Origin: Chloroflexi bacterium 44-23
GTDB lineage: Bacteria > Chloroflexota > Anaerolineae > Anaerolineales > Anaerolineaceae
Length of the DNA stretch: 64,000 nt
Reading direction: 5' to 3'
Assembly (NCBI GenBank): GCA_001899005.1
Contig: MKUW01000021.1
Span: 1-64,000, forward strand
In this document: in pieces, positions 43,286-62,700 of the stretch
Layout: every line of letters starts with the position of its first letter
Numbering within the stretch: the first letter of the stretch is position 1
Program-made: the position numbers and the translations under genes
The notes under the pieces: model-generated
Database searches by the model: none
Told to the model about the DNA's origin: nothing
Seen by the model: only the letters and a program-made list of their open reading frames with translations

Positions 43286-46200
43286 ATGCGTCCACCAGCT
43301 ATCGAACGAATGGGGTATTACCCCACAGATGACCCGATTGTCGAGATCATCTGCTCTTACCTGAAGCCGCCCGCAGAGAAAGGGCGGTTATTTGATCCCT
43401 GCGCAGGGGAAGGAAAAGCTGCTTCTTCCTTGGGCAACACGCTCAACTGCGAAACCTGGGGTGTAGAACTCTCACCAGAACGAGCAGGGAAAGCTCAAAA
43501 CGTGATGGATAAAGTTTACCAGGCTCCCTGGCAGGCTTGTGTTCTGAGTGATGAAAGCATTTCCTGGCTCTATCTGAATCCGCCCTATGAATTTGACCGT
43601 TTTGAGGGTCAAAAGAGGCTCGAATGGGACTTTCTCAAGACGACTTCCTCCAAACTGATGCGTGGCGGGCTGCTGACCTATATCATCCCTCAGAAAATTC
43701 TGGGAATGATTGAAGTTGCTCGGCTGTTAGCCGGACATTATGAAGCCATCACAGTCTATCGGTTTCCGGACGGATTGTACGAGAAGTATAAACAGGTAGT
43801 GGTGTTGGCCTACAAACGCAAGCTCTACCAGCTGCCCACGGACAAGGAGGTTCTTTCGCTTCAAAGCCTGGCATCGGTTGAACTGGAACCCATCCAATCC
43901 GCCATCGAACCAATCTATCAACTGTTGCCTGCACCATTACGTGGTGCAAATGGCAAACCAGTTATGTTCAAACGAACGGATTGGGAACCGGAAGAGGTGG
44001 TTGAAGCCACGAAGGAAGCAGGTGTCCAGAAAACCAATGATTGGCTTGACCTGATACACCCAACGCGTGGTCTGGCTCAACTCTCCCAACCGGTCATGCC
44101 CTTGAAGAAAGGTCATATCGCTATGCTCATGGCCTCTGGCATGATGGGCACAGTGAAGTTGACCGATGAAGAGGGGAAACCAATGCTGATCAAGGGACGG
44201 GTGATCAAGGTGGTCGAAAAGACTGAGCAGCCGGATGCCAAAGAAACAGATACAGTTGTAGAAACCTACAAGGATCGTTTTGTTACTACGGTGGCTGTGC
44301 TGAAACAGGATGGTATCCAGGTGATCCAGGATGTTAAAGGTCTTTCAGAGTTTATGAAAGTTCACGGCGAGAAGATCGCTGCGCATGTCCTGGAAACCTA
44401 TAAACCCATCTACAATCTGGACCCGACTGCAACCGAAATTGAAGTCCTCGATAATCTTGGTACTCTACGAAAAGCCCTTCCCGGGCAAGAGCGTGCTGGA
44501 TTGCTTCCTGCCCAAAGACATGCGGCAGCGGCGTTGGCTCGTTCAATTCGCAGAAATGGCGTAGCCAACTGCCAGGCAGAAATGGGTACCGGGAAGACGA
44601 CAATATCAACTGGGGTGATTGAGCTGCTGGATGCTTATCCTGCAATTGTGCTTTGTCCTCCACACCTTGTACCCAAATGGATCCGCGAGATCGAGGAAGT
44701 GATCCCAGGAGCATATGCTCGAGAAATCCGTCGCATCGGTCGGAATAGTGACGAAGCTTATGATGTGAACGATGTTCGTGAATTCCTGGATCAATATAAA
44801 GCAGCCTGTGATACTGCTCAAAAGAAAGGAGGTTCAAAGCCCAAATGGGTGGCAGTAGTAGCACATACCTCTGCCAAATTCGGGGCTGGATGGCAGCCGG
44901 CAGTCATCACCAGGAAAGCGAGAGACCCACTCACTGGAAAGATTGTGGATGCCTGTGCTTGTCCTGGTTGTGGTAAGGTCGTGATGGTCGAAAAGGACGG
45001 ATTTGTGGTTCCGGTAACTGACGCCTCTGAATTGGCAGAAAAACGCCAATTCTGTCACAATCGAATCTCTGGTTGGGAGTTGTATGCAGTCGGGAGGGCG
45101 AAACTTGATGCCAATGGTGACTCGGTATGGGGTACGCGTCCATGTGGGACACCCTTGTTTGAGTTCAATGGGGCGAGGCGACATAGTATTTCGGAGTACA
45201 TCACAAAACATGCGAAGGGTGCTTTCAAGCTTCTGATAGCCGATGAGGTTCATCAGTTTAAATCCAAGTCATCAGATCGAGGTGTCGCCTTCCATCAACT
45301 GGTAACAGCGGTGAAGTGGACGCTAACGCTCACCGGGACATTCTTTGGTGGCAAAAGCACCTCAATTTTCTGGCTGCTGCATCGCTTGAACCATGGCGTC
45401 CGTCGTGACTTTGCTTTCCATGACGAGAAGCGCTGGGCGCGGTTATATGGAGTGCTTGAAACCACCCGAAGACGGAGGCGCAATGAAGATGCCGATGAAG
45501 ATGGCGTGTACACTGGTAACCGGCGCTACCGTAACCAGGCCAAGGAACAGCCGGGTGTCAGCCCGGCAATCGTGAGCCGGTTATTGGATACCACCATATT
45601 CCTGAGCCTGAAGGATCTGAACCTGGCTCTGCCATCGTATAAAGAGGAAGTGGTTGCCCTGGATATGCTCGGTGACCAGGGACAGCAATATCACAGCATG
45701 GACAGCAGCCTGAAACAACTAGCTATCCAATCCAGTCGTTACCTATCTACCTGGCTTCAATGGACACTGGCGCGACCGAATTCCGCTTTTCGGGATGAGG
45801 TTGTGGTGGTCGATGAGGTGGATGGCGGCGATGGTAAAACCGTGCGAAAAGTACCGCTGATAGAGTTGCCGGCAATCAATCCGAATGGTCATAAATGGCT
45901 GCCGAAAGAGAACTGGCTGGCTGATTTCTGTAAGGTTGAAAAGCAGCAAGGGCGAAAAGTGCTGGTCTATGTTCGTCAGACTGGTACGCGCGATATTCAA
46001 GACCGGGTGATGATGCCTCTACAAGCCAACGGGCTGAGAGTCTCAATCCTGAGTGGGAATGTTGACCCACGCAAGCGTGAAGAATGGATCGCCAAACATG
46101 TGAATACAATCGATGTTTTGATTTGTAACCCTCGGCTTGTGGAAACAGGTCTCGACCTGGTGCAATTCTCAACCGTGGTGTTCTTTGAGATCGAATATTC

Positions 46201-46642
46201 ACTCTATACGTTGTGGCAAAGCGTGCGACGTGTATGGCGTTTGGGACAGACACAGCCGGTCAAAGCGATTTTCTCGGTTTACTCGTCAGCGATGGAAGCA
46301 ACAGCGCTGGCCTTGATGGGAAAAAAGATGAAAGCCGCGCAGCTCGTCTACGGGGATGAGGTCGGAGGTGCGATTGTTCCAGAAGAGGAAGGCGACTTTC
46401 TCACTCAGCTTGCTCGTGATGTGCTTGAGGGGGCAAAGCTCTCTGATTTACAGACCTTATTTGCTGATGACCTGCAAGTCAGCCACAATCCAATGGGCAG
46501 CCTGACGACCCCAAGCGCCGTGATTATTCCTGGTCCGAAAGTAATGACTTGGGATGATTGGGTAAGCCAGAAGACGGTGGTAGTTAGGCGGACTCGAAGA
46601 AAGGAGGAAGTACCGGAGGGACAGATGGGATTAGGGATTTAA
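43286..46642 (+). CDS. DUF6094-type methyltransferase fused to an SNF2-like helicase
   Basis: 1,118 residues with AAGGAG upstream. Residues ~1-200: class I SAM methyltransferase with LFDPCAGEGKA at 35-45 and the catalytic NPPY at 98-101, suggesting an N6-adenine target. The helicase part has Walker A AEMGTGKTT near 430, a DEVH box near 653 in LLIADEVHQFKS, and a C-terminal RecA lobe (VLVYVRQTGTRD, then DVLICNPRLVETGLDLVQF, then QSVRRVWRLGQ). A Cys-rich insertion (CACPGC) separates the motor lobes. Genes of this type are common on large conjugative plasmids and integrative elements. Roles in element maintenance or DNA modification are inferred. A terminator follows. Confidence 0.85.
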   Translation: MRPPAIERMGYYPTDDPIVEIICSYLKPPAEKGRLFDPCAGEGKAASSLGNTLNCETWGVELSPERAGKAQNVMDKVYQAPWQACVLSDESISWLYLNPPYEFDRFEGQKRLEWDFLKTTSSKLMRGGLLTYIIPQKILGMIEVARLLAGHYEAITVYRFPDGLYEKYKQVVVLAYKRKLYQLPTDKEVLSLQSLASVELEPIQSAIEPIYQLLPAPLRGANGKPVMFKRTDWEPEEVVEATKEAGVQKTNDWLDLIHPTRGLAQLSQPVMPLKKGHIAMLMASGMMGTVKLTDEEGKPMLIKGRVIKVVEKTEQPDAKETDTVVETYKDRFVTTVAVLKQDGIQVIQDVKGLSEFMKVHGEKIAAHVLETYKPIYNLDPTATEIEVLDNLGTLRKALPGQERAGLLPAQRHAAAALARSIRRNGVANCQAEMGTGKTTISTGVIELLDAYPAIVLCPPHLVPKWIREIEEVIPGAYAREIRRIGRNSDEAYDVNDVREFLDQYKAACDTAQKKGGSKPKWVAVVAHTSAKFGAGWQPAVITRKARDPLTGKIVDACACPGCGKVVMVEKDGFVVPVTDASELAEKRQFCHNRISGWELYAVGRAKLDANGDSVWGTRPCGTPLFEFNGARRHSISEYITKHAKGAFKLLIADEVHQFKSKSSDRGVAFHQLVTAVKWTLTLTGTFFGGKSTSIFWLLHRLNHGVRRDFAFHDEKRWARLYGVLETTRRRRRNEDADEDGVYTGNRRYRNQAKEQPGVSPAIVSRLLDTTIFLSLKDLNLALPSYKEEVVALDMLGDQGQQYHSMDSSLKQLAIQSSRYLSTWLQWTLARPNSAFRDEVVVVDEVDGGDGKTVRKVPLIELPAINPNGHKWLPKENWLADFCKVEKQQGRKVLVYVRQTGTRDIQDRVMMPLQANGLRVSILSGNVDPRKREEWIAKHVNTIDVLICNPRLVETGLDLVQFSTVVFFEIEYSLYTLWQSVRRVWRLGQTQPVKAIFSVYSSAMEATALALMGKKMKAAQLVYGDEVGGAIVPEEEGDFLTQLARDVLEGAKLSDLQTLFADDLQVSHNPMGSLTTPSAVIIPGPKVMTWDDWVSQKTVVVRRTRRKEEVPEGQMGLGI

Positions 46643-46742: not shown

Positions 46743-49700
46743 TTACTTAAATTGTTTATGATTTGAGCATTCAAAATACCTGGCTTTCTCAGCTGAATAA
46801 TTTGAAACAGCTTTGACGACATCCGATTTAGCTAAGAGAATCATTCCTTCGATGCTTGGCTCTTGATGAGCTTCGTTTGTGGATGGTATCAACTTTTCTC
46901 TCCAATACTTCATTACAATAAATGGATTTCCGTTTTGATCAACCAATGTAAAACCATGCTGAAAAGGCCCAGGAAACAAATTCTTAACAAGTTGAAGAAT
47001 TGGATGAGGAACAAGAATCACTATTTTGCCAAACATATCACGCGTAACACTAATTCCTACTAATGGGCCATGAAAAGGAACGCTGACATTTGAAGGATCA
47101 ATCTTTTTTTGCCAAGTTTCTATATTGCCATATCCTAAAGGCAAACCTTCATTACTATGCCAATCGGAGGCAAATTGTATTCCTGAATAATTACGGATTT
47201 CTCCAACCAGTGATTTTTCATAATCGTCTTCGTACTGAACTTCAGTTTCCGAATGAGCAAGAATCACCCAACCCTCATATTCACCTGCTGGCACATATTT
47301 TAATTCTTTTTCATTACACCCTTCTGGTTGTGATGAACAACGCGGAAGGTACCAAGGGCGGATAATACGGCTGAACATTTTTCGAACCGTTATGTCAACG
47401 TCTTGCAGCAAATTATCACCAACGATTTGCTCAACAGAGTAATTGAAATTACCCATTTTCGCGAATTCAGATCTTGCTGTCGTGCCTACTGTTTGAACCG
47501 CCCTTTCAGCCTCCTCATCAACCGGAAGCCATGCAGGGTTATAAAGTCCTCTATTATGCGGGTCAATTTCATGAAGAGTTCGCTGCATTTCCCTTTTCAA
47601 GTCATCGGAATTGACAAGAACATCTACGTATTTGGCAACCTGTTTTCCAAACTCCGGCCAAATTCGGTTTATTCTGGATATTCGTTCTTTGCCTATCCAT
47701 TCCTCAATGCTTGATTGCTTATTTTTTGGAATTTCAGGAAGTATAGGTAAAGCCGTGGGGCTTTGAATTTCATTTGGAATTTCAGCTCTGGTTAAAAGTC
47801 TTTTTGCCAATGAACGTAAACTAGAATAGGGGCTTGCCAATAATAAGATAAGATCCTCTTTTATTATTTGTGTTACTTCAAATGGATCTGGTTCATACGT
47901 AGCTACTAACTGTAGAAGTATTATTTGTGTTGAGATGGGGGTATTACTGGAAAGTGCAAACCTTAAAGCAGAAGCAAAAGATGATCTGTCGGTTGTAATA
48001 GATAAAGCTGCAGCTGCTACTGCCATTCTTTTTTCATGAAGAAAGCAACAATTGATACGAGAAAAAATAACGGAAACCAACCATTTTTCAGCATCATTCG
48101 AAATATAGTTATAAGGAATATCAATATCATCATGCGGCCCCGTATTGGGTAAGCGGTGACTTATGATATTACATGCTGCTTTCCATGATGAAAAAGCTTC
48201 ATCTACAAGACCTCCAGCGATGAGCAGTTCAATAAGGTGAGCAGTTACTCCGTTATCACCTCCACTAGCAACTCGTTCTGAAACCTCTATCGCGAGTGTC
48301 GACCAAGTTGTCTCTGGATCGAGTTCAAGAGCTTTATAGAAGTTGTTTATTGCTTTCTCGCCGGCAAAACTCCTCCACCCATCTCTGGATTTTGTATACA
48401 CATATGTATTCGCAATTGCAGCTAACCTACTTAAACCATGACGTTCTAAACCAATAGCAATATCGAGAAAGAACTGTTCAGCATTCCAGGATGGTAGATC
48501 CTGAGCAATTTGCCGGAGCACAGATTCAGCAGAACCTTCATCCCCCGCTTCTATCATTTCGATTAGACGCCAGCCAACCATATTCGAAAGACGCTGAGAA
48601 TTACCACGAACACCTCCAGAATCACGCCATACTCTTACACAATAAGTGATTTGTACCGGAGTAGCCATTTTAGGGAGTATCGGAAAAACTATTTTCTCGG
48701 AATTTTCATGAAGATCAGCTTTTAAAATAGCATCGGTTTTTTCTTCTCCTTTCTCATTTGTGGTCACTTTCTTTTCATAATGAGCATCTATCCCAAGTCG
48801 ATTTGCTGACTCAACTAACAAATAGGGCAATTCATCAGGGACATTAAATCCATCTCCATCTAAACAGCCCACAATTACATTCCAAAGAGTTCTTGCAAGA
48901 TCTACGTTATTATTCAAATCTTCACAGCACTTAAGAGTAGCATTTATATTACTTCTTGCTTCCGATCCAATCGCAAGCCATCCTGCGACAAGAAGAGCAG
49001 GATTGATTTGACTGAAAAGGGCTTCTAGTGCATATGGAATCGCATGGTCAAGCACTGCAAAATTCGGAAGTTTATCAATCCCATATTGTGATAAATAAGT
49101 TAAAGCTCCAGAGGGTTGAATTCTTGCAGCTTTATCTAGCCATTGATGAATCGCATGACTGGTTTCTCTGCCGTCTGTATGATTAATAACCTGTTCAACT
49201 ATCGGCTGAACATCGAATAAACATCTATGAACTTTGACTGGGTCAACCGATGCAAGTTTATCTAAAGGATCTAGCAACTCATAAACCGTTATGTCTTTTC
49301 TTTCCCCATAACTAAATAAGAAATGGCAGGCTTCTCGCCAGGCTTTCTCAGCAAGAATTTTCTCACCCGAAAATACTAAAAGCCGAACAAGTATAAGTTG
49401 ATCTATAGCATGAATATCATATACTTCTGAGCATCTTAGCTTTGGATTAAGGAGCTCTATTCCAAAAGTTGCAGATATTCGTCGTTTCTCCTCGGAATTA
49501 GCTGTTGAGATACAGAGTTCAAACAATTCATCGAGGGGTAAAGGACCATTTCGAATGCTTTGTAACCAAGTACTTGTCTTTACACTAATATCTTTAAGAG
49601 CACTTAATGCTAACTCCCAATGTTTGTCATCAAGAAATGAGAGCATTTTCCGGAAAGAGCGTCTAATAAGATCATGGAGTTCATAAAGATCACAAGCCCT

Positions 49701-52700
49701 TGGTTTCCCTTCAAAAACCTCAATATTTTGACTCAGATCAGCAAGGGCAGATACGATTTCATCCTGTGTTGATTTTGAACGATAAATAACTAAACAAAAT
49801 CTCAGCCATTTGTGGAACCAAGAATCAGGTTGAATGGCTATTTCGGATTGTGCCAAGGATGATTGATCACCTTTGGCATCTGAATATGATATAGCCGAAA
49901 TCCAATAAGCTAATGACTTGTTATCGAATTGAATTCTGTCTGAAATAACTTTGGTGGTTAATCCATTGAGATCAAGAACATCATCAGGAAATAGTTTTGG
50001 ATCTACACCTTTTTCTAAGCAAAATAGCCATTCATCTGGTGGGAGGCCATCCAAAATCGAGTTTTCAGCATAGGCCTTAGCATCAGCCTCGTTATTACTG
50101 CTCAAAGCCAGTACAAGGTAACAAAAAGCTCTCGCTAAACTCTTTGGTAATAAATTGACCACCTCGATTAGCGCGTCAGGGCCATATAATTGGAGGATTG
50201 TCCAATTAATATCTATTGGGTGTACCGGGGGTTCATTTGATGAATTTAACAAATCACAACATAACTTTATTGATAGTTCTCGTCCACTTAACCGAAATCT
50301 GCCGGTCAGGCGAGCAATATTGATTACATCATTACTACCGTCGGCATATGTAGTATCTTTTTTTTGTAACTCTTTATCGTGGGCTTTTCGGTACTCAATC
50401 CAAGGTGGAATAACGCCTTCATCATCACAAGTTTTGCAAAGTACTAATCCTGACCGTGCTGGGAAAGTGCAGCGATTGTTAGATAAAAGACGTTCCGATA
50501 ATAACTTTGCACCAAACAAAGCCGAAAAGGATTTCCCGTAATTTTCAGCAATGGGGTAATCATCTAATCTCCACTTATAAAAATGATAAGCAGCGCGTGA
50601 TAACTCTATTAGCCGGGTGAGATCTGTCCACAATTTCTGGGTTGCAGCTATCTCTGCTGCTAAAGCGAGATTAGCTTGTACAGCATCCGCAGGTTGCCCA
50701 TAAGCAATCGAATTAATCACAAAATCATCATTTATTCTTGCGATAACCTCTTCTTTCCTACCTACTACAACAAGTAGTTTTAATAGGGAACGATAAGCTC
50801 TTGTATCTGAATAGAACCCACGACTATCCAACCAATTAGCGACAGGAATGAGGATGGCAGCAATATTAGCTTCTGGATCCGATTCCAGCCTCTGCCTCAT
50901 AAATCGCTGGAAGCTTTCATGATAGAGCCTTACTCCGCCAAGAGTTATATCTTCCGTCAGAACTGGTGATAAATGAGTAAGAATCTTGCTGATGTAGTGG
51001 CCGATATCAGGTTTAATTTGTTTTATTTCTGACGCTGCTAATGGAAAGTCCACAAGAGACAATAATTCGCCAATCCAAATAACCCCCGTATCTCTTGCTA
51101 ATCCATTTATTAGCCACTGATAATACGCGTCTAAATTTTGATCAAGTGCCGGAACAGCTGATAAGTATTCAGGAACATCAGATATATCCTTAGTATTTTC
51201 ACTATCACGAATGGAGAAAACCATCCTAACTAGATAAGCAGCATAAAGAGGATTGCCATCGGCTTTCTTTTTTATGACTTCTTGAACACGTTCATAATCA
51301 CTATCCAACCCTAAAACCGATAATATCTCCCTCAGCTCCATGCGATCAACAAGCTGACGCATTGAACCATCATTCCATTTCTGGACGATATATTCAGTGC
51401 CTAATGAAAGATATGAAGCTAAATGTGTGCCGGGTTGAGAACCCACAATAATAACAACACCAGGAGGGATTTGGAGAGCAGCCAATTCCTGAATTATCTC
51501 GGCAGCAAGTCCGGGCCGCACGGAACCGGGGAGGCGATCAGCATGATCTAACCCATCAACAATGATAGCTATTTTACTCCCCACATTTTGTCGATTTCTA
51601 TGAGTCAGTAATTTCTCTAATTCATGAGGTCCGGCCGAAAACCGTGGTACTACATCAGTTGAAAGCGATGGGTCTTTTTCAAGGAGTTGTGCAATAATAC
51701 TTCCGAAAATAGTGTCGATAGAATTTCTTTGAATTAAGTCCGGATCAAAAGCATCGATAAAACAATAATGTAACGCGGTAAGCCATCCATTTTCTGTTAA
51801 GTACGAATTTAGTTCATGTAAAAGCCATGATTTTCCCATTCCTGGCGAACCGGTAATCGCTATGCGCGAGTTTTGCTCTATAATCCTTGAGATTTCAATT
51901 AGGTGGTCATTCTGCGGAACAAGTCGATTCTCTGATATAGGGAAGTTTTCTTCTACCTTTCCATAGTCCACCCGTAAAGCCAAAGTTTCAATCACAGATT
52001 GTTGGTCTAAAGTATCACCATGAGCGCGAGCGATACTTGCAGCTTTAATTAAATGGGCAGCTGCATCAAATACATCACGGTTATGGTTTGGCCATAAACC
52101 TACCCCAATTTTTTCGTGTAGGACATTAAGGAGTATGTTATCCAAAGGACCTGGGATCCGTAGATCACCAGATGCTCTAGGGCAATTTGTCTCTATAGTG
52201 AACCGTTCACAAAACGCAAGAAAAACATCCCGTCCAAAAACATCTACATGAGGCCAAAGCGGTACTGTACTCTCGGGCCAAATCTTTTCCGGGATTAGTT
52301 TGTATCGCTCTGTTGCAAAACACGGAAGAAGAGGAGCTATTAATGGTGTTGTGAACAAATAAGGCGCCAATTCCGCTTCCGGAGAGTCATATGAAGTGAA
52401 GAGGCAATATGAATTGGCTGGATTTGGATCTTCGTAAAAACTACGGATAGCTTTATCAATACGAAATGATATTCGGTTTGTTGTGAAGTCGGATAGTAAT
52501 AGAGGGCGGTAATCGCTCTCATGTGATTTTATCTGAATTCGTGATCGTTCCTTGCCTGATAATTCGAGGTCATCAAAGCAGTCTTCAGCGATTACCTTCC
52601 GATCAACGGTAACTTTCACCCCCTCAAATTTAGGTAGCAAAATAGTTGCGAGAGCACATGCAGTTATGCAATCTTGATGGTTATACCCGAAGTGTGCTGC

Positions 52701-52715
52701 TGATAGTGAAGGCAT
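46743..52715 (-). CDS. Avs-like STAND NTPase with N-terminal Cap4/DUF4297-type nuclease
   Basis: 1,990 residues. Residues ~8-65 match the Cap4/DUF4297 endonuclease pattern: GYNHQDCITACALATILL, acidic D48-D49, then IQIK with Q61 and K63. The STAND NTPase has Walker A GSPGMGKS at 289-296 and Walker B IAIIVDGLDHAD at 382-393. The remaining ~1,500 residues are helical and repeat-like, as in sensor domains of Avs proteins, which recognise phage proteins and switch on the nuclease to stop infection. A CKTC pair (LVLCKTCDDEG) near residue 755 may bind zinc. It is the last gene of the minus-strand defence cluster, 233 bases after the 723-residue gene. The target and the exact Avs class cannot be told from sequence alone. 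Confidence 0.75.
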   Translation of the reverse strand: MPSLSAAHFGYNHQDCITACALATILLPKFEGVKVTVDRKVIAEDCFDDLELSGKERSRIQIKSHESDYRPLLLSDFTTNRISFRIDKAIRSFYEDPNPANSYCLFTSYDSPEAELAPYLFTTPLIAPLLPCFATERYKLIPEKIWPESTVPLWPHVDVFGRDVFLAFCERFTIETNCPRASGDLRIPGPLDNILLNVLHEKIGVGLWPNHNRDVFDAAAHLIKAASIARAHGDTLDQQSVIETLALRVDYGKVEENFPISENRLVPQNDHLIEISRIIEQNSRIAITGSPGMGKSWLLHELNSYLTENGWLTALHYCFIDAFDPDLIQRNSIDTIFGSIIAQLLEKDPSLSTDVVPRFSAGPHELEKLLTHRNRQNVGSKIAIIVDGLDHADRLPGSVRPGLAAEIIQELAALQIPPGVVIIVGSQPGTHLASYLSLGTEYIVQKWNDGSMRQLVDRMELREILSVLGLDSDYERVQEVIKKKADGNPLYAAYLVRMVFSIRDSENTKDISDVPEYLSAVPALDQNLDAYYQWLINGLARDTGVIWIGELLSLVDFPLAASEIKQIKPDIGHYISKILTHLSPVLTEDITLGGVRLYHESFQRFMRQRLESDPEANIAAILIPVANWLDSRGFYSDTRAYRSLLKLLVVVGRKEEVIARINDDFVINSIAYGQPADAVQANLALAAEIAATQKLWTDLTRLIELSRAAYHFYKWRLDDYPIAENYGKSFSALFGAKLLSERLLSNNRCTFPARSGLVLCKTCDDEGVIPPWIEYRKAHDKELQKKDTTYADGSNDVINIARLTGRFRLSGRELSIKLCCDLLNSSNEPPVHPIDINWTILQLYGPDALIEVVNLLPKSLARAFCYLVLALSSNNEADAKAYAENSILDGLPPDEWLFCLEKGVDPKLFPDDVLDLNGLTTKVISDRIQFDNKSLAYWISAISYSDAKGDQSSLAQSEIAIQPDSWFHKWLRFCLVIYRSKSTQDEIVSALADLSQNIEVFEGKPRACDLYELHDLIRRSFRKMLSFLDDKHWELALSALKDISVKTSTWLQSIRNGPLPLDELFELCISTANSEEKRRISATFGIELLNPKLRCSEVYDIHAIDQLILVRLLVFSGEKILAEKAWREACHFLFSYGERKDITVYELLDPLDKLASVDPVKVHRCLFDVQPIVEQVINHTDGRETSHAIHQWLDKAARIQPSGALTYLSQYGIDKLPNFAVLDHAIPYALEALFSQINPALLVAGWLAIGSEARSNINATLKCCEDLNNNVDLARTLWNVIVGCLDGDGFNVPDELPYLLVESANRLGIDAHYEKKVTTNEKGEEKTDAILKADLHENSEKIVFPILPKMATPVQITYCVRVWRDSGGVRGNSQRLSNMVGWRLIEMIEAGDEGSAESVLRQIAQDLPSWNAEQFFLDIAIGLERHGLSRLAAIANTYVYTKSRDGWRSFAGEKAINNFYKALELDPETTWSTLAIEVSERVASGGDNGVTAHLIELLIAGGLVDEAFSSWKAACNIISHRLPNTGPHDDIDIPYNYISNDAEKWLVSVIFSRINCCFLHEKRMAVAAAALSITTDRSSFASALRFALSSNTPISTQIILLQLVATYEPDPFEVTQIIKEDLILLLASPYSSLRSLAKRLLTRAEIPNEIQSPTALPILPEIPKNKQSSIEEWIGKERISRINRIWPEFGKQVAKYVDVLVNSDDLKREMQRTLHEIDPHNRGLYNPAWLPVDEEAERAVQTVGTTARSEFAKMGNFNYSVEQIVGDNLLQDVDITVRKMFSRIIRPWYLPRCSSQPEGCNEKELKYVPAGEYEGWVILAHSETEVQYEDDYEKSLVGEIRNYSGIQFASDWHSNEGLPLGYGNIETWQKKIDPSNVSVPFHGPLVGISVTRDMFGKIVILVPHPILQLVKNLFPGPFQHGFTLVDQNGNPFIVMKYWREKLIPSTNEAHQEPSIEGMILLAKSDVVKAVSNYSAEKARYFECSNHKQFK

Positions 52716-52948: not shown

Positions 52949-55120
52949 CTATTCGATCGTAGCTTTTTCAATAGCTGCATCAATAATTCGGAACCAATCT
53001 TCTTCGTCAAGAATTACTAATGGATAACCAAATTGTCCAGAAACAAACTGAAAATCTTCTCTCACTTCATCATTGATTGTGTTGGGGATTGACACCCCAA
53101 TAATATCTAGATCTGCGCCTTGAATTGTTGCTAAATATGCAGAGTGACAATACTGTGTATAAAGTCCCTTGATTGAGGGTACCGACCTTCCAAGACCGCG
53201 AACTTTTGATCTCTCTCTGCTTTTTAGGTGGATCCCTATCCGTTTTTCTTCTCCAGTGTTTATCCATACATCTGGATATCGAATATCAGCTATCTCATGG
53301 CCATGATGAACGCCGTCAAACTCTTCATCAACAGCATAACCGAACAATCTGGAAAGACATAGATCATTACCAGCTTTTATCCTGGCCGTGGTTATTACTT
53401 CTCGCATGCAACCACTGCAAATTTCATTACTGGAGTGACGATTGTTTCGGGCGCACTTTTCTTTTATGCGCCAAAGTATCTGACCATATTGATTTTTTCT
53501 TTCATCAGAAATATTTCGTTGGTGAATATGTGCCCTAGTTTGCCACATTTGGAATTCGGATAAATGATATTCGTTGATTGCCACTCTATTTCTTGGGAGC
53601 AATCTTAAAACATGTCCAATGATTATAAAACTACCATCGAATTGTTGATTCTCCAATACGCCTAAAAACCTGTGGATTGCTTTTAGAAGCTGTACCCCGG
53701 GAAGAATCCTGATATCTGCCGAAAATGTCAGCTCAATATTGGCTCCACAGTCGCAGGGGAACAACTCATTATCTTGATATTGATGCTCATTAGGATGGGT
53801 GGAGCATTGAAAAATGAGCTGGTGATCTACAACAATAGGGGTTAGAGGAGAATTACAAACTGAACAGCGAGCGATATTATCCCCGCAATTTTCACAGTGA
53901 ATATTTAGTGCTGGAACAATGTCAAGGAAATGATATTGTTCAACCAGGGTCCTAACGAAAACAGGATCGAATTGAAATTCTGTAGTACGTGACCTTCGAG
54001 CTCCAATTATCGCTTTTATCAATTCCTCGAAATAATACCGTTGTTGAATTCTTAGTTTTTTTCTGCCAAGGGTTACAGGCACATGTCGATAGTACGCTAT
54101 AAACCCATTCGGATTAATATCAGCCTCCCTATTTAGTTCCTGTTCTGTTTTCTGGATTAAGTTGATAGAGAGAGCTAATAGGGAATCTTTTCGTAAGTGT
54201 GTTGGCGTCCATATACGGCCGTATTGACGTGATATTCCCATTCCACCTTGGACTAAATCGGGATGACTTGAATAAAAACCAAAAGTTTGCTGGCGGGATG
54301 GATCACCGGAAAGAGATCGATAGGATCTTAGTTCTCCTAAAGAAGGATCTGAAATTGTGAGAGACTGGGCATCAAAATTACCGATTGAATCATCGTCAAT
54401 ACGTGAAAAGGAGGCCGTCCTTGGATTTGCTCCTTCTGCTAAACGATCTAGCATTTCCTCGGAAAGATATGGAAGCTGCCAACTTATGGACAACAATGTT
54501 CTACAATAATAGAGAATTGGCTTAACTGCTTGGAAATCCGCACATAATAAAAGGGCATGCCTAAACTCTCTGCTATACCAGATAATTGCTTTTTCTAGAC
54601 TGTAAATAACATTTACTTCTCCAAAGTCTTCCGACTCCGGATCAGAAACCACATATTCAATTTTCTTTTCATAAACGAGAGGAATCTCTTGAAATGGTAT
54701 TTGTGTAACAACCTCTCTCGCAGGAGTAATGATGTAAACTGACCTTACTGTTCGATCCAAACCAAATTGAACCGCTGCCTCTTGCATCTGTTCTGCAAGT
54801 TTAGTAGTCGTCTCAAGAAGGTGCTGAAAATCTGGCCAGGAGTTAACCGACACCAGATAAAGTGTTGGGCTTGAAGATAATGGATAGTTCGCTTTTGTAT
54901 CTTCAAGAGCATTGTGTCCATTTTCCGTAGATTGTAGAACCTCCACTAATTGAATTTTTGAGAAATCATCAAGCCTACGCCTTAAGTCGGTTTCAGCCTG
55001 GATTTTTAACATTTCTCGAATTTGGTCGCCAGGAATATTCCGGATGACTAATTCAATGATTTCTCGTTTTGGGACAGGAGTTCCACCAATGGGCATATTT
55101 TTCCCTTGCTTTGCTTCCAT
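52949..55120 (-). CDS. Uncharacterised zinc-ribbon protein with possible PD-x-x-K nuclease end
   Basis: 723 residues; the ATG at codon 9 (55096) has AGGGA seven bases upstream and may be the true start. I know no family for the whole protein. Residues ~85-210 look like an alpha/beta domain (TLYLVSVNSWPDF ... HALLLCADF). A zinc ribbon has C409, C412, C419 and C422, with further Cys at 439, 456 and 458, and CSGC at 568-571. The C-terminus has PD at 616-617 followed by IHLK (K633), a spacing that fits a PD-(D/E)xK nuclease with His at the variable position. It follows brxL by 69 bases, on the same strand. A role in defence is inferred from position and the nuclease-like end. Confidence 0.6.
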   Translation of the reverse strand: MEAKQGKNMPIGGTPVPKREIIELVIRNIPGDQIREMLKIQAETDLRRRLDDFSKIQLVEVLQSTENGHNALEDTKANYPLSSSPTLYLVSVNSWPDFQHLLETTTKLAEQMQEAAVQFGLDRTVRSVYIITPAREVVTQIPFQEIPLVYEKKIEYVVSDPESEDFGEVNVIYSLEKAIIWYSREFRHALLLCADFQAVKPILYYCRTLLSISWQLPYLSEEMLDRLAEGANPRTASFSRIDDDSIGNFDAQSLTISDPSLGELRSYRSLSGDPSRQQTFGFYSSHPDLVQGGMGISRQYGRIWTPTHLRKDSLLALSINLIQKTEQELNREADINPNGFIAYYRHVPVTLGRKKLRIQQRYYFEELIKAIIGARRSRTTEFQFDPVFVRTLVEQYHFLDIVPALNIHCENCGDNIARCSVCNSPLTPIVVDHQLIFQCSTHPNEHQYQDNELFPCDCGANIELTFSADIRILPGVQLLKAIHRFLGVLENQQFDGSFIIIGHVLRLLPRNRVAINEYHLSEFQMWQTRAHIHQRNISDERKNQYGQILWRIKEKCARNNRHSSNEICSGCMREVITTARIKAGNDLCLSRLFGYAVDEEFDGVHHGHEIADIRYPDVWINTGEEKRIGIHLKSRERSKVRGLGRSVPSIKGLYTQYCHSAYLATIQGADLDIIGVSIPNTINDEVREDFQFVSGQFGYPLVILDEEDWFRIIDAAIEKATIE

Positions 55121-55188: not shown

Positions 55189-57267
55189 TTAAACCTTGTA
55201 TATATCCACCTTCGTTTCCAAGCATTTCCTCAATGATAGATCATTGGCGCCGATTTCATTCCAGCTTTGGGGTTTCTGGTAGAAATCCAATCCTCGACCA
55301 ATTTTTACCACCCAGCCGTTATCCAGCCGAATTTCACGATCATGAATGTTTGGGTTAAAGTCAAAGTCGAAAACAATATCAACTTCGAGCAGGCTTTGTT
55401 TCAGGTCGCCTAGTTTCTGTTCAATCTCCAACTTCTGAGTTTCATCGTCATACCCAGTGATCAATTCGATGCGTTTGATGCCCGACAATTTGATAATAAC
55501 CTCACAAAAGCGAACAAGGTTCTGAATTTGGTGAGGCATACGAATGTAGGGGTCTTCAATCTCGATACTCTTTGAACCTGTAAAGTAGGGGCCAAAAATA
55601 GTCTCATAGCTATAGCCAGTATCACCATAAAAAATTGTGTAATGCTTTTCGCTTAGTTCTGGTTCTTTGGGTGAAACGATTTCTGGCTGGACCATTACTG
55701 CCACTTCTGAAGGCAGCTCGACCACAGTTCTAGTTTGAGCTTTCCTCGTTTTTGCTTCCGGATTCTCTTGTGCTCCTGAATTCAATGAACGCCGGAATGG
55801 ATGCTGTGTAGCAGTTGCGTTACGCGATTCCGGACAAAAAACCACGACTTCTTTTCCATCTGGGGCAAAATAGGACAGGTTAATCCGTGCAAACTCATCA
55901 TCAGGTTTGCGTTTGTTCATTTGTTCTTTTACACGCCGCCTAGCTTCAACTGCATAAGCTACATATTCGTCAAATTCTGAATCGCTGGGTGGACCATCGG
56001 GATGCAGTATTTTTAGAAAAGCACATACAGTCTTTTTGATGCCCTTTTCATCGCGGCCTTCGACATTCTGTCCCAATCGAATTCGCTTATTGACTTCCTC
56101 GTACCGATTGGTGTGAGAGAATTGATGATGAAATGCTTCCGCCAAATAATCCGTAATGAAACCATAATTTCCCGTCAGAAAATCACTGCTATTCTTCGGC
56201 ATTTCCCAACCGGGTAAATAGGCGGCAAACCGATCCATTATTGCCAGATCAAACTCTCTTGGCATGGGAATAAAAAGATCATGTTCAGTCGAATTGACTA
56301 ATTGTTCAATGGAATGATCGATATTCCCGTTGAATGCCAGGCTCGCGTCGGCAATCACTTCGGCTCCACGCGAGAAACGACCGTTTGCCATGAAATCTTT
56401 CATGATCTGGATGGTTGTGGAGTCTTTGATTTGGATGCCGGCGACCTCATCAAAGGCAACGGTATCCCAGAAACCAACCAGGCCGGTTCTTTTCCGGGCA
56501 TTGTTGTAGAACAATATTGGGGTTGTAGCCTGTCCGCCACTGACCAGGGTTGAATAGGGAGAAAATTCGCTAAAGAAGTACGATTTTCCAGTTCCCCTGG
56601 GACCTAGCTCGATAAAATTGTAGTTAGGTTCCACCAAACATGCCAATCGGAGCATAAAGTGGAATTTCAACCGCGTTGAGAGCTTCGTTGGCTCTAATCC
56701 GACAGAGCGTAAAACAATATCCAACCATTCATCTCTTGAAAACTTACTCCGACCTGCTGCATACCCATCGAAATCAAACCGGCTCAATTGAATTGGTCGC
56801 AAATCTTCAACATAGAACGTGTAATCGTCATCTTCAATTTCGTTGTATCCAATGGTAATTTCAGCCCAAATACCACCTTCTAACAGACGATCATTATCGC
56901 GATAAAATTTTTCATTGATAGCCACCCGCTGGGAATTAAAGTTTTCAAGGGCAGCCCAATGGCGCTTTTCTTTCTCAACATAGTTGACATGGACTTTATC
57001 AATAAAGCGGTGTTTTCCTTTGGTTGCGACCTTAGACTGAGCAGCGTTCGCTTCGTCTGCGCGCACATAGTTATCCTGAAGGGTTGCCAGGACAGCTTCC
57101 AATCCCTCCTGGATTTCTTTGGGATCTTCACTGGCGCAATACCGTGCCAATAGAAATTCCAATACAAACGTTGGGACATTCGTGCCCTTTTTGATACGAT
57201 GTAATAAATCTTTGCGGACAGCTTTACCTTCAAAAACCTCAAGAAGTTTCTCGTCTAATATATCCAT
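55189..57267 (-). CDS. brxL: BREX Lon-like ATPase/protease BrxL
   Basis: 692 residues, close to the usual BrxL length. AAA+ core: Walker A GPRGTGKS near residue 224, Walker B-type FDEVAG near 270, then the conserved SRGAEVIADASLAFNGN and PREFDLAIMDRFAAYLPGWEMPK. An acidic/low-complexity linker near 490-530 precedes the C-terminal Lon-like domain. BrxL is an AAA+ factor of type 1 BREX phage defence. It starts two bases after the pglZ stop, so the two are coupled. Confidence 0.9.
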   Translation of the reverse strand: MDILDEKLLEVFEGKAVRKDLLHRIKKGTNVPTFVLEFLLARYCASEDPKEIQEGLEAVLATLQDNYVRADEANAAQSKVATKGKHRFIDKVHVNYVEKEKRHWAALENFNSQRVAINEKFYRDNDRLLEGGIWAEITIGYNEIEDDDYTFYVEDLRPIQLSRFDFDGYAAGRSKFSRDEWLDIVLRSVGLEPTKLSTRLKFHFMLRLACLVEPNYNFIELGPRGTGKSYFFSEFSPYSTLVSGGQATTPILFYNNARKRTGLVGFWDTVAFDEVAGIQIKDSTTIQIMKDFMANGRFSRGAEVIADASLAFNGNIDHSIEQLVNSTEHDLFIPMPREFDLAIMDRFAAYLPGWEMPKNSSDFLTGNYGFITDYLAEAFHHQFSHTNRYEEVNKRIRLGQNVEGRDEKGIKKTVCAFLKILHPDGPPSDSEFDEYVAYAVEARRRVKEQMNKRKPDDEFARINLSYFAPDGKEVVVFCPESRNATATQHPFRRSLNSGAQENPEAKTRKAQTRTVVELPSEVAVMVQPEIVSPKEPELSEKHYTIFYGDTGYSYETIFGPYFTGSKSIEIEDPYIRMPHQIQNLVRFCEVIIKLSGIKRIELITGYDDETQKLEIEQKLGDLKQSLLEVDIVFDFDFNPNIHDREIRLDNGWVVKIGRGLDFYQKPQSWNEIGANDLSLRKCLETKVDIYKV

Positions 57268-57269
57268 AG

Positions 57270-59789
57270 TTACACCGTATAGTCCGTTTCAAGTTCTAAT
57301 GATTTACCCAGGGCGGTTTGTGTGATCGGATCAAGAGCTTTCACAATGAATTTACCCTCAAAATCCATATCCATTTTTAGTGTAATTGGAATGGTGTCTC
57401 CTGGTTTTAGCGTAATGATTCTGGTTGCCGGGTTTACCGGACCGCCAAGTTTTGCTTCGCCAACGACATGTCCTTTTACATCGTAAGCTTCAATTAGCAG
57501 CTCCGTTTCCTGGGCAAAGAGATCCGAAGCTCCGGCTTCAACCTCTATGACCGGTAATCGGGTGGTGATCTTTTTGGAGCCTCGCTTGTAATTTAACATC
57601 ACTGATAGTTTGCTACCAATTCCAGTCTCTGCGGCGCGAATCTTCACTGCGATGACGGGCACAATCGCTTCCTGAAGCGAAAGCCCGCCGTGGAAATACC
57701 ATTGCCCAGCGCGATATGCCACCATTGCACGCGGAACCGCTACCTGGTTAAAGTCTCCTTTGATGCCAAACATTTCAGAGGGTAGAACCAGGTTGGATGC
57801 ATCGCCAATCCCATCGCCGAGAAGTGTTCTCTCATGAACATTGATCCATTTCCCGGATGGTTTCACGCACACATCGCCTGGTTCAATGGCTGTATTCAGG
57901 AAAAAGCCATGATCGGTGGCAATGATGACATCCTGAAATCCAAGGTCACGTAATTTATAGATAGCCGACCGGATTTTCTGGAAGGTACGACTGATTAATC
58001 CTGGAGCCGCTTCTGGATTGGCTTCAAAATCATTATCCATATCATTACTGCGAATGACCAGAAGTTCAACGGTGCTCTCAATCTTGGGATGATCACGGAC
58101 AAACCGGACCAATTCCATTTCTGCAAAACGCTGCCCATACTTTTTACGCAGCACATCCATGCGTTGAGCGACGGTGGCTAATGGCTGGTCACCGAATACG
58201 ACCAACAACTGATTATCCTTATTCGTAATTATTAGGTTTTGACCGGCCCCGGGTAACAGTGTCGCCATCCCAACGGGTGTGACTGTAGGCATCTGAGCGC
58301 AAGCCATCTGAACATCAATTTGCCCAGCTTCGTTCAAGTGCTTTGCTAACTCAACACCGAGTTCATAACGCATGGCATCGATCAACAAATAAGCCACGCG
58401 CCGGCCGCTTTCGAGCAATTTCGGTGCGACCAATTTATCAAACACATCAGCATTCGATAAGCGCCCCGAGATTGGCCAGCCGGATTTTTCGATATGTCGT
58501 ACGAAAACTCCATGGATCTTGTCCATTAATTTATGGTACATTGAGCGCGATTGATTGATCACCTCTATTGATGCGCCACCTGAATCGAGGAGATCTCCAG
58601 CAGCTTGTTCAAATTCACGCTGGATGCGATCTACTTCGCGGATATTGCTGGTGTAAAAGTCCAACAAGGTATCCAGTGTACGGGTGTGCTCGGATAGCTG
58701 GCGGTCGGTGTCTTCGCATGCCTGGGCTAGGCTGGCAGCCGAGTGGAGCAGCGCCCACTGGGCCTGGTTTTCACCCCGACTGACCCAGACCGATTGCTCA
58801 TGTCGATTTAAGATACTGCGCAGTTTATCGACATTATCCCTTTTAAGGGCATCTACTGCTTGGTTGAAACAGGCACGTTCTTCAAACGGGAAAGTATCGC
58901 GAATGCCAAAATCTTCATTTTTCTCGCATATTGACGGCAGATTTAATTCTTTTTCTATTCCCTCAGCCCGCTCAATATATAACGCTTGAGTGCGCCGGTC
59001 ATTCCGTAACCGGTCACACAGATCTTCCACGAGGTGGAGCGCCTCTTGGGGGGCGCAAGGCACGTTCGTTAAAGCAGGCGGAAGATCGCCGGGTAGATCA
59101 AAGTCGAATTCACTGAACAACAAGAAACGCCACAGCTCATCTGCAATCGCGTTCCACGTTTTGATTTTGGTTTTCAGGTTAAGGCCCAGTGTGCTTTGGA
59201 ATAATCCTGTTGCTTCAGATACCCAGGTTATTTGGTTTTTAAGGGCTTCTTTTTGCGTTTCGGAAGGTGCAAGCAATGCAAACAAAATATCGCGAGCTGA
59301 TTCAACTTTGAGTATCGCTTGCAGGTTTGGCCAGCCTGCTCCTCCGCCAACGGCGTCAATGACCGCAAAACCGGGATTAGGATTGTCCTTAAAAATCCGG
59401 CGGATTTCGGTAGCATAATCCGCGCGTGCTTTCAAGCAAAGACTGAGGAATTCATCCCCATCTCCCTCTGGAAAAACAGAGCCGCAAGCGCCGTAAATGG
59501 CAAACGGATCGCGTTGTTTTTCCTCATCCGTGATCGGCGGCTTGGCGGGAACATACACCAGGATGCCCTCAAGGGATGGGTTGGGCTGGCCAAACTCATT
59601 GAGTGCTTCCAGTGCAGCAAAGCGGCTGGTGATGCTGCTTTCGGATGCATCAATGACACGCAGTTTTTCAGCGTTCAGCTCCAAACACAGCTCGTGGTAG
59701 CGCTGGTCGGGGTCATACACAACCAACACCCCATTTTGTTTGAGGCGTGGCAAGAATATTTTTTTTTGGATGAAATCTTTAATCGTCAT
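57270..59789 (-). CDS. pglZ: BREX alkaline-phosphatase-superfamily protein PglZ
   Basis: 839 residues from the ATG at 59789 (the frame is open to 59816). The PglZ domain has VAYLLIDAMRYELGVELAKHL near residue 470 (metal-binding Asp), and VIIATDHGFFLN further on, the two hallmark metal motifs. The C-terminus is a beta-rich domain. PglZ is essential for BREX. It overlaps the end of pglX by 11 bases and runs into brxL without a gap, which is the type 1 BREX order. Confidence 0.9.
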   Translation of the reverse strand: MTIKDFIQKKIFLPRLKQNGVLVVYDPDQRYHELCLELNAEKLRVIDASESSITSRFAALEALNEFGQPNPSLEGILVYVPAKPPITDEEKQRDPFAIYGACGSVFPEGDGDEFLSLCLKARADYATEIRRIFKDNPNPGFAVIDAVGGGAGWPNLQAILKVESARDILFALLAPSETQKEALKNQITWVSEATGLFQSTLGLNLKTKIKTWNAIADELWRFLLFSEFDFDLPGDLPPALTNVPCAPQEALHLVEDLCDRLRNDRRTQALYIERAEGIEKELNLPSICEKNEDFGIRDTFPFEERACFNQAVDALKRDNVDKLRSILNRHEQSVWVSRGENQAQWALLHSAASLAQACEDTDRQLSEHTRTLDTLLDFYTSNIREVDRIQREFEQAAGDLLDSGGASIEVINQSRSMYHKLMDKIHGVFVRHIEKSGWPISGRLSNADVFDKLVAPKLLESGRRVAYLLIDAMRYELGVELAKHLNEAGQIDVQMACAQMPTVTPVGMATLLPGAGQNLIITNKDNQLLVVFGDQPLATVAQRMDVLRKKYGQRFAEMELVRFVRDHPKIESTVELLVIRSNDMDNDFEANPEAAPGLISRTFQKIRSAIYKLRDLGFQDVIIATDHGFFLNTAIEPGDVCVKPSGKWINVHERTLLGDGIGDASNLVLPSEMFGIKGDFNQVAVPRAMVAYRAGQWYFHGGLSLQEAIVPVIAVKIRAAETGIGSKLSVMLNYKRGSKKITTRLPVIEVEAGASDLFAQETELLIEAYDVKGHVVGEAKLGGPVNPATRIITLKPGDTIPITLKMDMDFEGKFIVKALDPITQTALGKSLELETDYTV

Positions 59790-62700
59790 TGAACCAACCT
59801 TCTGTCTCTTCATCAATTGCTGGTTTTTTGGCTTTTTTCTTTTTAACGGATGCCGGCGGCTCTACGTACAATTCTTCTAAATCGTGCGCAATCGCTATCG
59901 ATTTATCGGTCTTACACTTTTCACGCACACGCTCTGGCCAGATGCTGTAAGCCAGATGCGCCCAGTCGTATTCGCCAGATTCAAGTTTTGACCAGGTTTC
60001 CCGCAGACGTTTCTGCCAGGGTTTGTGTTGGAATAGCTTCCACAACGGGGCGGCGGTAATTTCCACACCATCGTTCAAATTCGGTTTCCAGAACTTCGCC
60101 ACACGCAGCAATTCTTCACGGAAATCTTTCAATTCGCGCTCGAAATCCGTCAGGCGCTCCAGTTCTTTTTCATCGGCAGCTGAGCGGCCTTTCTTCAGTC
60201 GCAGGCGGGCAGCTTCCTCGGATACTTGCTTGAGCTTCACATCGACAAAGTCATTCACGCAGGTATAGAGTGTCTGATCGTTCAGACGGTGGTAATACAA
60301 CCATAGGGTATATGAACAGGATGGTGTGGAAAGCGGCCAGTAGATTGGTGCAGCGCGGCGGCTCTTAGAATAGCGTTTGAGGTGATCGGCAAAAAACAGA
60401 GCCGGTTTATTATAATATTCCCGTATAGTGTGCACACCCAAGATCTGGCAGGTTTCATCTTCGATGGTTTCGACTCGCTCGCCCCAGATAATATGTAATA
60501 CATTACGTATACGCCCTTCAATATCTTCAAAATGTCCTTCATCATCTACCAGAATCCCCGACCAGGAAATCCGCAGAGGGTAATAGGAAGGCATATTCTG
60601 CGAAGCAGCAGGAAAATCTTGGACGTCATGCAGCATTCCTGGCGGGTAAGCAGGCAACGGGGCAAAAGGATCAGATAAATCGGAAGTAGATATTTGATTA
60701 AAGGCATGTCTTATGTCCCAACGCCCAAGTAGGCATCCAATTATCCACATAAATAAATCAATTTTCAATTCACTTTGGGAACGAGTGCGGAAAACATGTT
60801 TCTTCATTAAAAATGAAGTGGTAGCTAATTCTTTAAATTGGTCCTTATTAATATTTAATGCAACTTGAACGCAATTATCAATTTCATCTATATTTTTTAG
60901 AATCTTTTCTTCGGTAATATCTAAAAACGAAATATCATCCGAAGATATTAATGGTCTAAGAAAATATGGGGACAGCTCGCAATATTGTTCAAGTAATAGC
61001 ATCGACCTAACTGCTTCTTTGGTTAAAGGTCCAATTAGATTTTCTGTCAAATAGAGAAGGTTTAACCCATAAGGTAAATTTGCAACAGCACGATTCTCGT
61101 ATGCTCGATGGCGTCCAAACGCTTTCAGTAAAACATCACTCCAACTTGAGACCAATAACCCTAAAAGTGCGTAAATATTGTTCTGATCTGCTAAGAAAAT
61201 TGACATTCCCTTTTCTGAAAAAATACATTGAGAAGGTAGAATCTTGGGGCTAAACGATAGATTTACCCTTGGATAAGTCAAACCAGGTCGAAACCACTTT
61301 GATATACTTTGAATAATTTGTCCATCCGTACCATATAAACCTATTTGAAAACTACGGGGTTCAGCACCATTGTTTGACCAGTTGAATACCAAATTAGTCG
61401 GCGAAATAAGAGGTTGGTACTCTCCGCCTTTTTCATAGGAAAACCAAATTTTATTAAGAGATTCAGGTGAAACCTCATTGCGAAGTCGTAGAAATCTAAA
61501 ATCATCAAAAGTATGATTTCCAGCAACAACTTCAGCCAAGTCTGGCTCGAGCCTTTCTTGTTCTTTCCATAAATGAAGAAGATTTGAATTCATGTGTAGA
61601 CACAAAGGCCACCCATATATATTCTCAAAAAAATCCAAATTATGTAGAGTAAATTGTTTTTGTTGACACGCAACGAGTAAAGAAGAATCCTTTTGAATTA
61701 TATTGAACAGATCTAGATAATTAGTAGTGGGGGTACCGTTGTTGACAAATACTGATAAAGCTGTTTCGACCGCCGCATCATCAAGAACACCGGATCCAAG
61801 TTCCACAATAATTAAGAGAGCATTTTTGGTAATTATATTTTTCCGGAGTTCACGAAGTTGTTTTGAATATAAATAAAGGAGAGATGTTATTGCGCCAACC
61901 ATTCCGTTTTCATCAAGTTTTGATTGCATTCTTTTTATAAAAGCAGCGTAAATATCTTTCCAATCATCTGCATATTGCTTTTTTAATAATGATATTGAAG
62001 AGCTTGACGGTTTACCAAAAGGTGGATTCATTAACACAATATCAAACATTTTTCTGGACAAATTGATAAATTTAAATCCTTGTGATACATCTCCAACAAA
62101 CAAACGCCGCCTATATCCCTCACCGTTTTCAGTACGTTCTGCATATTCTCCTAGTGCTACCAGTACAAGTCCTTCGGCTCGATAAAAGAAATCCTGTTCT
62201 TCGCTAGATACCACCTGCACATATTTCTCTTTCGGGGGTTCGGTCAAGCCATAGTCCAACACTCGGAAAAGTGGGGATTTTTCCTCCGATTCTTTTCGAG
62301 CTATAGAAATTGCATCCCGCAGTGTTTCCTCAATTTTCAACAAACTGCCGGCTTCCCCCGCCAGTTCCATCTCCTGCCATACCGCGCGCACTAGTTTAGT
62401 CAAGGCCTCCGCCATTTGTGGTGTAGCACGTACTTTCTTATCAGCAGGCACATACCAGGCTTTGCGCATCAGTGCTTCCAACCTTTCGCCCTGCAAGGTA
62501 CCCAAAAATTCCTCCAGCATCTGCCGGTCGCCAGGCATGGGTTCGGCACACACCACGTTGGATTTTCGGATCTGAGGGCGTTCGCTGGGGCACAGCCTCT
62601 GTGTTTGCCAACTCTTCTGGGCACGAAGCCATAGGCTCAGTCCTGCAATCTGTACCGCGCGTGGGTCAATATCTACACCGTGAACGTTGCGCTCGATAAT

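Follow-up and report, generated by a model that had tools for sequence, protein, structure and literature searches.

A rare protein family with a putative Mrr-like nuclease domain at the ends of BREX, ARMADA-like and MADS-like operons

The window analyzed here is a stretch of 64,000 nucleotides from Chloroflexi bacterium 44-23 (contig MKUW01000021.1, positions 1 to 64,000). It contains the gene under study, called X, between BREX genes and a gene of the STAND type. The following features were assigned (G and L numbers are our handles for genomes and loci):

43286..46642, plus strand: gene for a DUF6094 methylase-helicase, convergent, flanking the site where an apparent mobile element carries defence cargo
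46743..52715, minus strand: NACHT/STAND gene, 1990 aa, downstream neighbour of X in a neighbourhood that is not conserved (Pfam, PADLOC)
52949..55096, minus strand: gene X, preferred start M9, 715 aa (start signals, dN/dS 0.15–0.22)
52976..53323, minus strand: C-terminal putative PD-(D/E)xK (Mrr-like) nuclease core, X residues 600–715 (motif, element order, hhalign, VIA-align)
53222..53308, minus strand: putative active-site stretch H605-x-G607-x-E609-x2-D612...K633 (alignments)
53357..53461, minus strand: second Cys4 zinc knuckle, X residues 554–588, with EKC556, C568xxC571 and C588 (alignments)
53735..53908, minus strand: double zinc ribbon, X residues 405–462 (alignments, weak Pfam DZR and PDB matches)
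53921..55096, minus strand: N-terminal region of X, residues 9–400, fold unassigned (model and alignment)
55189..57267, minus strand: brxL, upstream neighbour of X and last BREX core gene (PADLOC BrxL, E 5.6e-283; Pfam)
57270..59816, minus strand: pglZ (PADLOC)
59779..63948, minus strand: pglX (PADLOC)
Past the window end, after pglX: brxC, brxB and brxA (L005:4174-9130)

The BREX operon is complete and intact, with six genes of a type-1-like set, and X comes after brxL. As the initial annotation had described, X lies between brxL and the STAND gene with all of them on one strand, which is the minus strand; 233 bp separate X from the STAND gene, and no terminator-like site was found in the scanned stretch covering X and both its flanks. 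The longest open reading frame (52949–55120, minus strand, 723 codons, start at 55120) had been taken as the full protein. This frame is real, and the plus strand over the same stretch contains many stops throughout, but the start is more likely M9 at window position 55096. Since conservation among relatives sets in at residue 9, a Shine-Dalgarno-like AGGGA lies upstream of M9 (no such site is visible ahead of M1) and the start codon of the Longilinea homologue corresponds to M9 and is preceded by AAGGTG, the product probably has 715 aa. The dN/dS ratio of X is 0.15 against Flexilinea and 0.22 against Leptolinea, and brxL gives 0.03–0.06 in the same comparisons; X is thus a real gene under purifying selection.

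X represents a real, rare and uncharacterized protein family that is associated with defence loci and had no name until now. The earlier statement that it could not be placed in a family was borne out by profile searches: X and nine relatives have no significant match in Pfam, NCBIfam, PADLOC or PHROGs, a Pfam nuclease match was obtained for none of the members, and PADLOC HMMs matched none of the 10 at E values up to 1. A full-text literature search returned no paper on this exact type of protein. Five relatives (two from Levilinea and one each from Leptolinea, Flexilinea and an Anaerolineae MAG) are 90–97% identical to the window protein. Identity drops to 58% for Longilinea, 57% for genome G585 and about 32–35% for G177 and G673; members from G147 (another Chloroflexota class), a Rubrobacter plasmid (Actinomycetota) and Paenibacillus (Bacillota) are ∼20% identical. 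Levilinea, Leptolinea, Flexilinea and Longilinea all belong to the host family of the window (Anaerolineaceae, Chloroflexota). The Paenibacillus gene is full length in a contig of a viral collection, beside prophage genes, and incomplete on a plasmid.

The distant relatives were reachable solely by steps through the distant member L018, with E values of 1e-5 for window to G147, 1e-24 for G147 to Paenibacillus, 8e-14 for Paenibacillus to Rubrobacter and 8e-30 for G650 to Paenibacillus. Plasmids and viral contigs gave no match to the window protein or to the alignment of its close relatives, and phages gave none to L018; a second phylum search, covering mostly the same genomes as the first, gave no additional relatives. 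In the genome samples, X occurs in 7 of 101 at family level, 8 of 301 at order level and 3 of 400 at phylum level. A stretch of about 30 kb that includes dnaA is nearly identical in L040/L041 (G663) and L019/L020 (G177), which are listed as different genera; one of these genomes may be mislabelled or contaminated. As this stretch is essentially identical between them, G663 and G177 were counted as one case of X.

The N-terminal region begins with a helical part (residues 18–78, pLDDT about 80–88), followed by alternating strands and helices of very low confidence, and may be a sensor or regulatory part. Zinc-type cysteine pairs had been noted in the middle of the protein; they are indeed present, in clusters at 409–422, 439–458 and 556–588 that are mostly conserved in relatives. 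The double zinc ribbon (C409, C412, C419, C422; C439, H442, C456, C458) is matched weakly by Pfam DZR (E 1.8, in 2 of 10 members) and by PDB zinc-ribbon chains, and is absent from the Rubrobacter member. The second knuckle, EKC...CxxC...C, is present in 9 of 10 members and is followed by the motif HxGxExxD-x(18–20)-K. H605, E609 and D612 are kept in all nine full-length members, down to ∼20% identity, and K633 is kept in all of them at a spacing of D-x(18–20)-K; the members sharing this motif span Chloroflexota, Actinomycetota and Bacillota. The motif was originally read as PD-x13-H-x-K. Its letters are there (P616-D617...H631-L-K633), but it does not describe the family: P616 varies even in close relatives (PD, AD, SD or KD), and in distant members D617 is lost and H631 is replaced by A or K/M.

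In both models the C-terminal elements follow the order strand-strand-helix-strand-helix-strand-helix, and this order and the motif spacing are compatible with an Mrr-like PD-(D/E)xK nuclease. An hhalign comparison of the X C-terminus with an Mrr_cat alignment, made of proteins from related genomes, gave a P value of 0.014 and was in register over the last half (DIIGVSIPNT...LVILDEEDWFRII of X against KGIFITTSGFT...ITLIDGETLSQLM of Mrr_cat). Scores as high were reached by 3 of 200 column shuffles, the reversed profile scored lower, and the global mode gave a meaningless alignment that was off register. AlphaFold predictions were unusable for the full-length protein (7 sequences, pLDDT 44) and reached a pLDDT of 49 for the C-terminal domain (8 sequences). 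With this domain model the best VIA-align rows, all below the reliable range, were residues 5–168 of Avs4 (Z 5.9) and several RPB5 subunits (Z 5.3–3.8), which we take to be restriction-endonuclease-like folds. Foldseek returned nothing at E 0.001 for the same model; its rows were RuvC (the best, at 9e-3) and Hsp70-like proteins and were judged to be chance, and the RuvC fold differs from PD-(D/E)xK.

The profile and structure tests agree in direction, all under significance: the structure prediction and profile search proposed earlier gave weak nuclease-like rows and no significant family match. The acid or glutamine position before the catalytic lysine is H, A or K/M in X, so that catalysis would need E609 as a stand-in; E609 may replace the missing acid or the domain may be inactive. 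The idea of a divergent nuclease remains plausible, on other grounds than the exact motif first named, namely the invariant E-x2-D-x(18–20)-K, the element order, the similarity to Mrr_cat and the weak fold matches. On balance we lean towards a nuclease for the C-terminal domain.

This end of the protein is exchangeable. Identity between the window and Flexilinea proteins is 95% as far as residue 519 and 78% from there on; the break is sharp, at residue 500–520, just ahead of the zinc knuckle and the putative nuclease. The member in G650 (L046:3909-5606) has 565 aa; behind its zinc-ribbon part it carries, instead of the zinc-knuckle/nuclease module, just a short tail terminating in VTIYNTIRVGTVESGGTVTGVALDGKGSAVVQN, and this tail could be an interaction motif. 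The swap in Flexilinea and the loss of the module in G650 point to a recognition part combined with an exchangeable effector. A plainer cause is that the swap in Flexilinea may be a by-product of the recombination that brought in a HerA-like gene: directly behind X, in the position of the window's STAND gene, Flexilinea carries a HerA/DUF87-like gene (L015:12240-14390).

In the window and its five close relatives X directly follows brxL on the same strand. This near-identical version of BREX is known from six operons in six genomes, each with X in this place; the BREX-linked genes are one recently spread lineage. In G585 the operon ahead of X encodes a YprA/DruE-like helicase, a SNF2 helicase and, third, a PglX-like methylase. 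X comes next, in a reading frame overlapping that of the methylase, and its preferred start may be further in. In Longilinea X lies at or near the end of a longer version of this operon. A YprA helicase, a BrxHII-like helicase and a PglX-like methylase make up ARMADA type I in a 2025 preprint (PMC12458937), and on gene content both operons can be labelled ARMADA-type-I-like. The single MADS-like case is G147, where X stands behind the operon (PADLOC matches to mad2, mad5, mad6, mad7 and mad8) in the same orientation and itself matches no mad model. In the BREX, ARMADA-like and MADS-like loci alike, X is always at the 3′ end of the system and in its orientation.

Other members are solitary and lie outside defence islands: in G177, G663 and G673 between pilus genes and the dnaA region, and further on the Rubrobacter plasmid and in G650. 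Thus, of eight separate contexts, about four have X at the 3′ end of a defence operon that relies on a methyltransferase, with X and the operon on one strand. The chance of at least four of eight is ∼4 in 10,000 if 5% of positions qualify. This is a rough guide: the 5% base rate is assumed, and one mobile-element site is common to the BREX cases and Longilinea.

Several side observations concern these operons. A 415-bp methylase 3′ end is doubled in G585 (L044:5531-5965 and L044:8993-9406, 95.7% identical) and flanks X, the mark of a recent insertion or duplication. The ARMADA-like operon of G585 sits 3′ of a BREX operon containing nested AbiLi/AbiLii genes; such a pair lies between pglX and pglZ in Levilinea saccharolytica (L012:3386-5315) and in G585 (L045:8469-10485). 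PglX is just 61–68% identical across operons whose BrxL is 97–99% identical (window 59779–63948 against L014 and L015), as expected where the target-recognition part has been exchanged. The pglX frame is split in two in Levilinea and in the Ch132 MAG.

X is independent of each of the systems it accompanies. BrxL is encoded at 33 places in 19 of 101 family genomes, and X adjoins 6 of the 33; it stands directly at the operon end on the same strand, as a BREX core gene might, but is absent from most BREX loci. An ARMADA-type methylase was found in 19 of 301 order genomes, with X adjoining in G585 only; the Longilinea locus with methylase and X comes from outside this sample. X was not found in the remaining methylase-bearing genomes of the sample, nor in the G492 and G011 loci, and is not a conserved component of ARMADA type I. 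X and brxL also differ in their history: dS for X is 0.07 between window and Leptolinea and 0.36 between window and Flexilinea, against 0.26 and 0.22, respectively, for brxL. The co-occurrence check called for earlier thus gives 6 of 33 places for brxL, and the STAND gene is not conserved beside X. The view of X as a BREX accessory stands insofar as X is an optional add-on of six operons; it fails as to BREX specificity. X attached separately to the ends of BREX, ARMADA and MADS operons and for this reason resembles an additional, exchangeable defence layer.

The DUF6094 methylase-helicase beside the window's cargo marks the place where an apparent mobile element of Anaerolineaceae carries defence genes as cargo (L117–L123), and the window genome has a second copy, 96% identical and with different cargo, on contig C10 (G000:C10:53794-57147). 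The helicase is present in 29 of 101 family genomes, mostly without X, for which reason X was rejected as a fixed part of the mobile-element backbone. The neighbouring cargo varies and includes other BREX versions, ARMADA-like operons and Avs3a-like genes, among others; X was absent in all seven copies of the site that were read. At the same site, L119:3-19979 and L016:616-18797 contain an ARMADA-type-I-like operon and then an Avs3a-like STAND gene with a 253–262 aa gene. In Longilinea X and several small genes are inserted between such an operon and this gene pair.

Among known systems BrxU is the closest working parallel by analogy, though not a homologue. BrxU is a GmrSD-family type IV restriction enzyme inside the pEFER BREX island that stops phages BREX does not, a precedent for a BREX-linked nuclease acting as an independent layer (PMC8565348). 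Both are single genes linked to a type I BREX operon, the nuclease of X being putative and its separate layer proposed. BrxU carries DUF262 and DUF1524 (HNH-type) domains and is NTP-dependent, whereas neither domain was found in X in the Pfam search; unlike BrxU, X has zinc ribbons and an Mrr-like C-terminus and attaches to ARMADA and MADS operons as well. With Mrr_cat (PF04471) X shares the element order, a D followed by K after 15–20 residues and the register of the second half; it differs in lacking a Pfam match, in HxK, AxK or similar for QxK, and in its additional E609, EKC zinc knuckle and other N-terminal part. As far as the available part of the preprint describes them, the components of ARMADA type I exclude X, and DISARM (DrmC) and Dpd/BRIGADE have, like X, a nuclease gene downstream of a methylase/helicase defence operon (PMC12458937). 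The nucleases of DISARM and Dpd/BRIGADE are PLD-type or other PD-(D/E)xK enzymes, and no similarity of X to them was found in PADLOC.

Our preferred reading, which we put forward tentatively, is that X is an exchangeable accessory defence protein with an Mrr-like nuclease, forming a separate layer beside methylation-based operons. X would have attached itself to the 3′ end of such anti-phage operons; its N-terminal region and zinc ribbons would recognize either foreign DNA, which may be modified, or a signal produced by the phage, and the zinc knuckle and Mrr-like PD-(D/E)xK domain, with E609, D612 and K633 in the active site, would then cut DNA. Defence would thereby gain a second layer against phages escaping BREX, ARMADA or MADS, much as with the unrelated BrxU. 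The main rival to a separate restriction layer is that X is a guard, which the neighbouring methyltransferase complex keeps silent and whose effector is released to damage the cell when a phage inhibits that complex. PrrC, a guard beside a type I restriction system, follows the same logic, and exchangeable C-terminal modules are known in guard and abortive-infection proteins. A guard would fit the exchangeable C-terminal module, the position behind three systems that are unrelated but all have methylases of a PglX-like or type I/IIG-like kind, and the presence of AbiLi/AbiLii genes inside the BREX operons of Levilinea and G585; solitary members, having no methylase system beside them, would have nothing to guard, and we rate this rival as rather unlikely.

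It is doubtful, too, that X acts as a DNA-binding regulator or as a factor of a mobile element, its C-terminus having a nuclease fold without activity or some other alpha/beta fold. The replaced (E/Q)xK acid and the results with the domain model (pLDDT 49, no Foldseek row at E 0.001, VIA-align rows under the reliable range) speak for such a fold, and the position at the edge of a mobile-element cargo site for such a factor, but E609, D612 and K633 stay constant while most of the sequence changes, and the DUF6094 helicase mostly occurs without X. A role as an integral part of a BREX subtype that supplies the cleavage step would agree with the place of X in the six near-identical operons and with the lack of a terminator-like site in the scanned stretch; it is nevertheless very unlikely as BREX without X is common, X also occurs without BREX, the histories of X and brxL differ and type I BREX already has a nuclease in PglZ (PMC12205998). 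The earlier suggestion of a partnership with the STAND protein, here with X as the effector, fared worst. The two genes are close and on the same strand in the window, and in Longilinea an Avs3a-like STAND gene follows X; this gene belongs to another family, and the two STAND genes do not cluster as homologues. The window's STAND gene is absent beside X in the other clade loci, five of the seven clade loci (those of the five close relatives) have no STAND gene beside X, which makes five of six relatives compared with the window, and G011 has an Avs3a-like gene and lacks X. The STAND gene of the window is cargo of the same site and not a partner of X, and a joint function is most improbable.

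Returning to X as an accessory layer, one speculative extension, which we regard as unlikely in this specific form, is that X is a plug-in immune nuclease sensing something that BREX, ARMADA and MADS have in common, such as a PglX-like methylase complex retained on phage DNA that lacks methylation, or the inhibition of that complex. X would then be a movable cleavage or guard module with an exchangeable effector. Genes that join the ends of methylation-based defence operons show how such systems gain layers. A family found on BREX, ARMADA and MADS operons is a natural tool to ask whether a downstream effector reads a signal shared by them, and X offers four invariant residues (H605, E609, D612 and K633) and an exchange point at residue 500–520 for this purpose.
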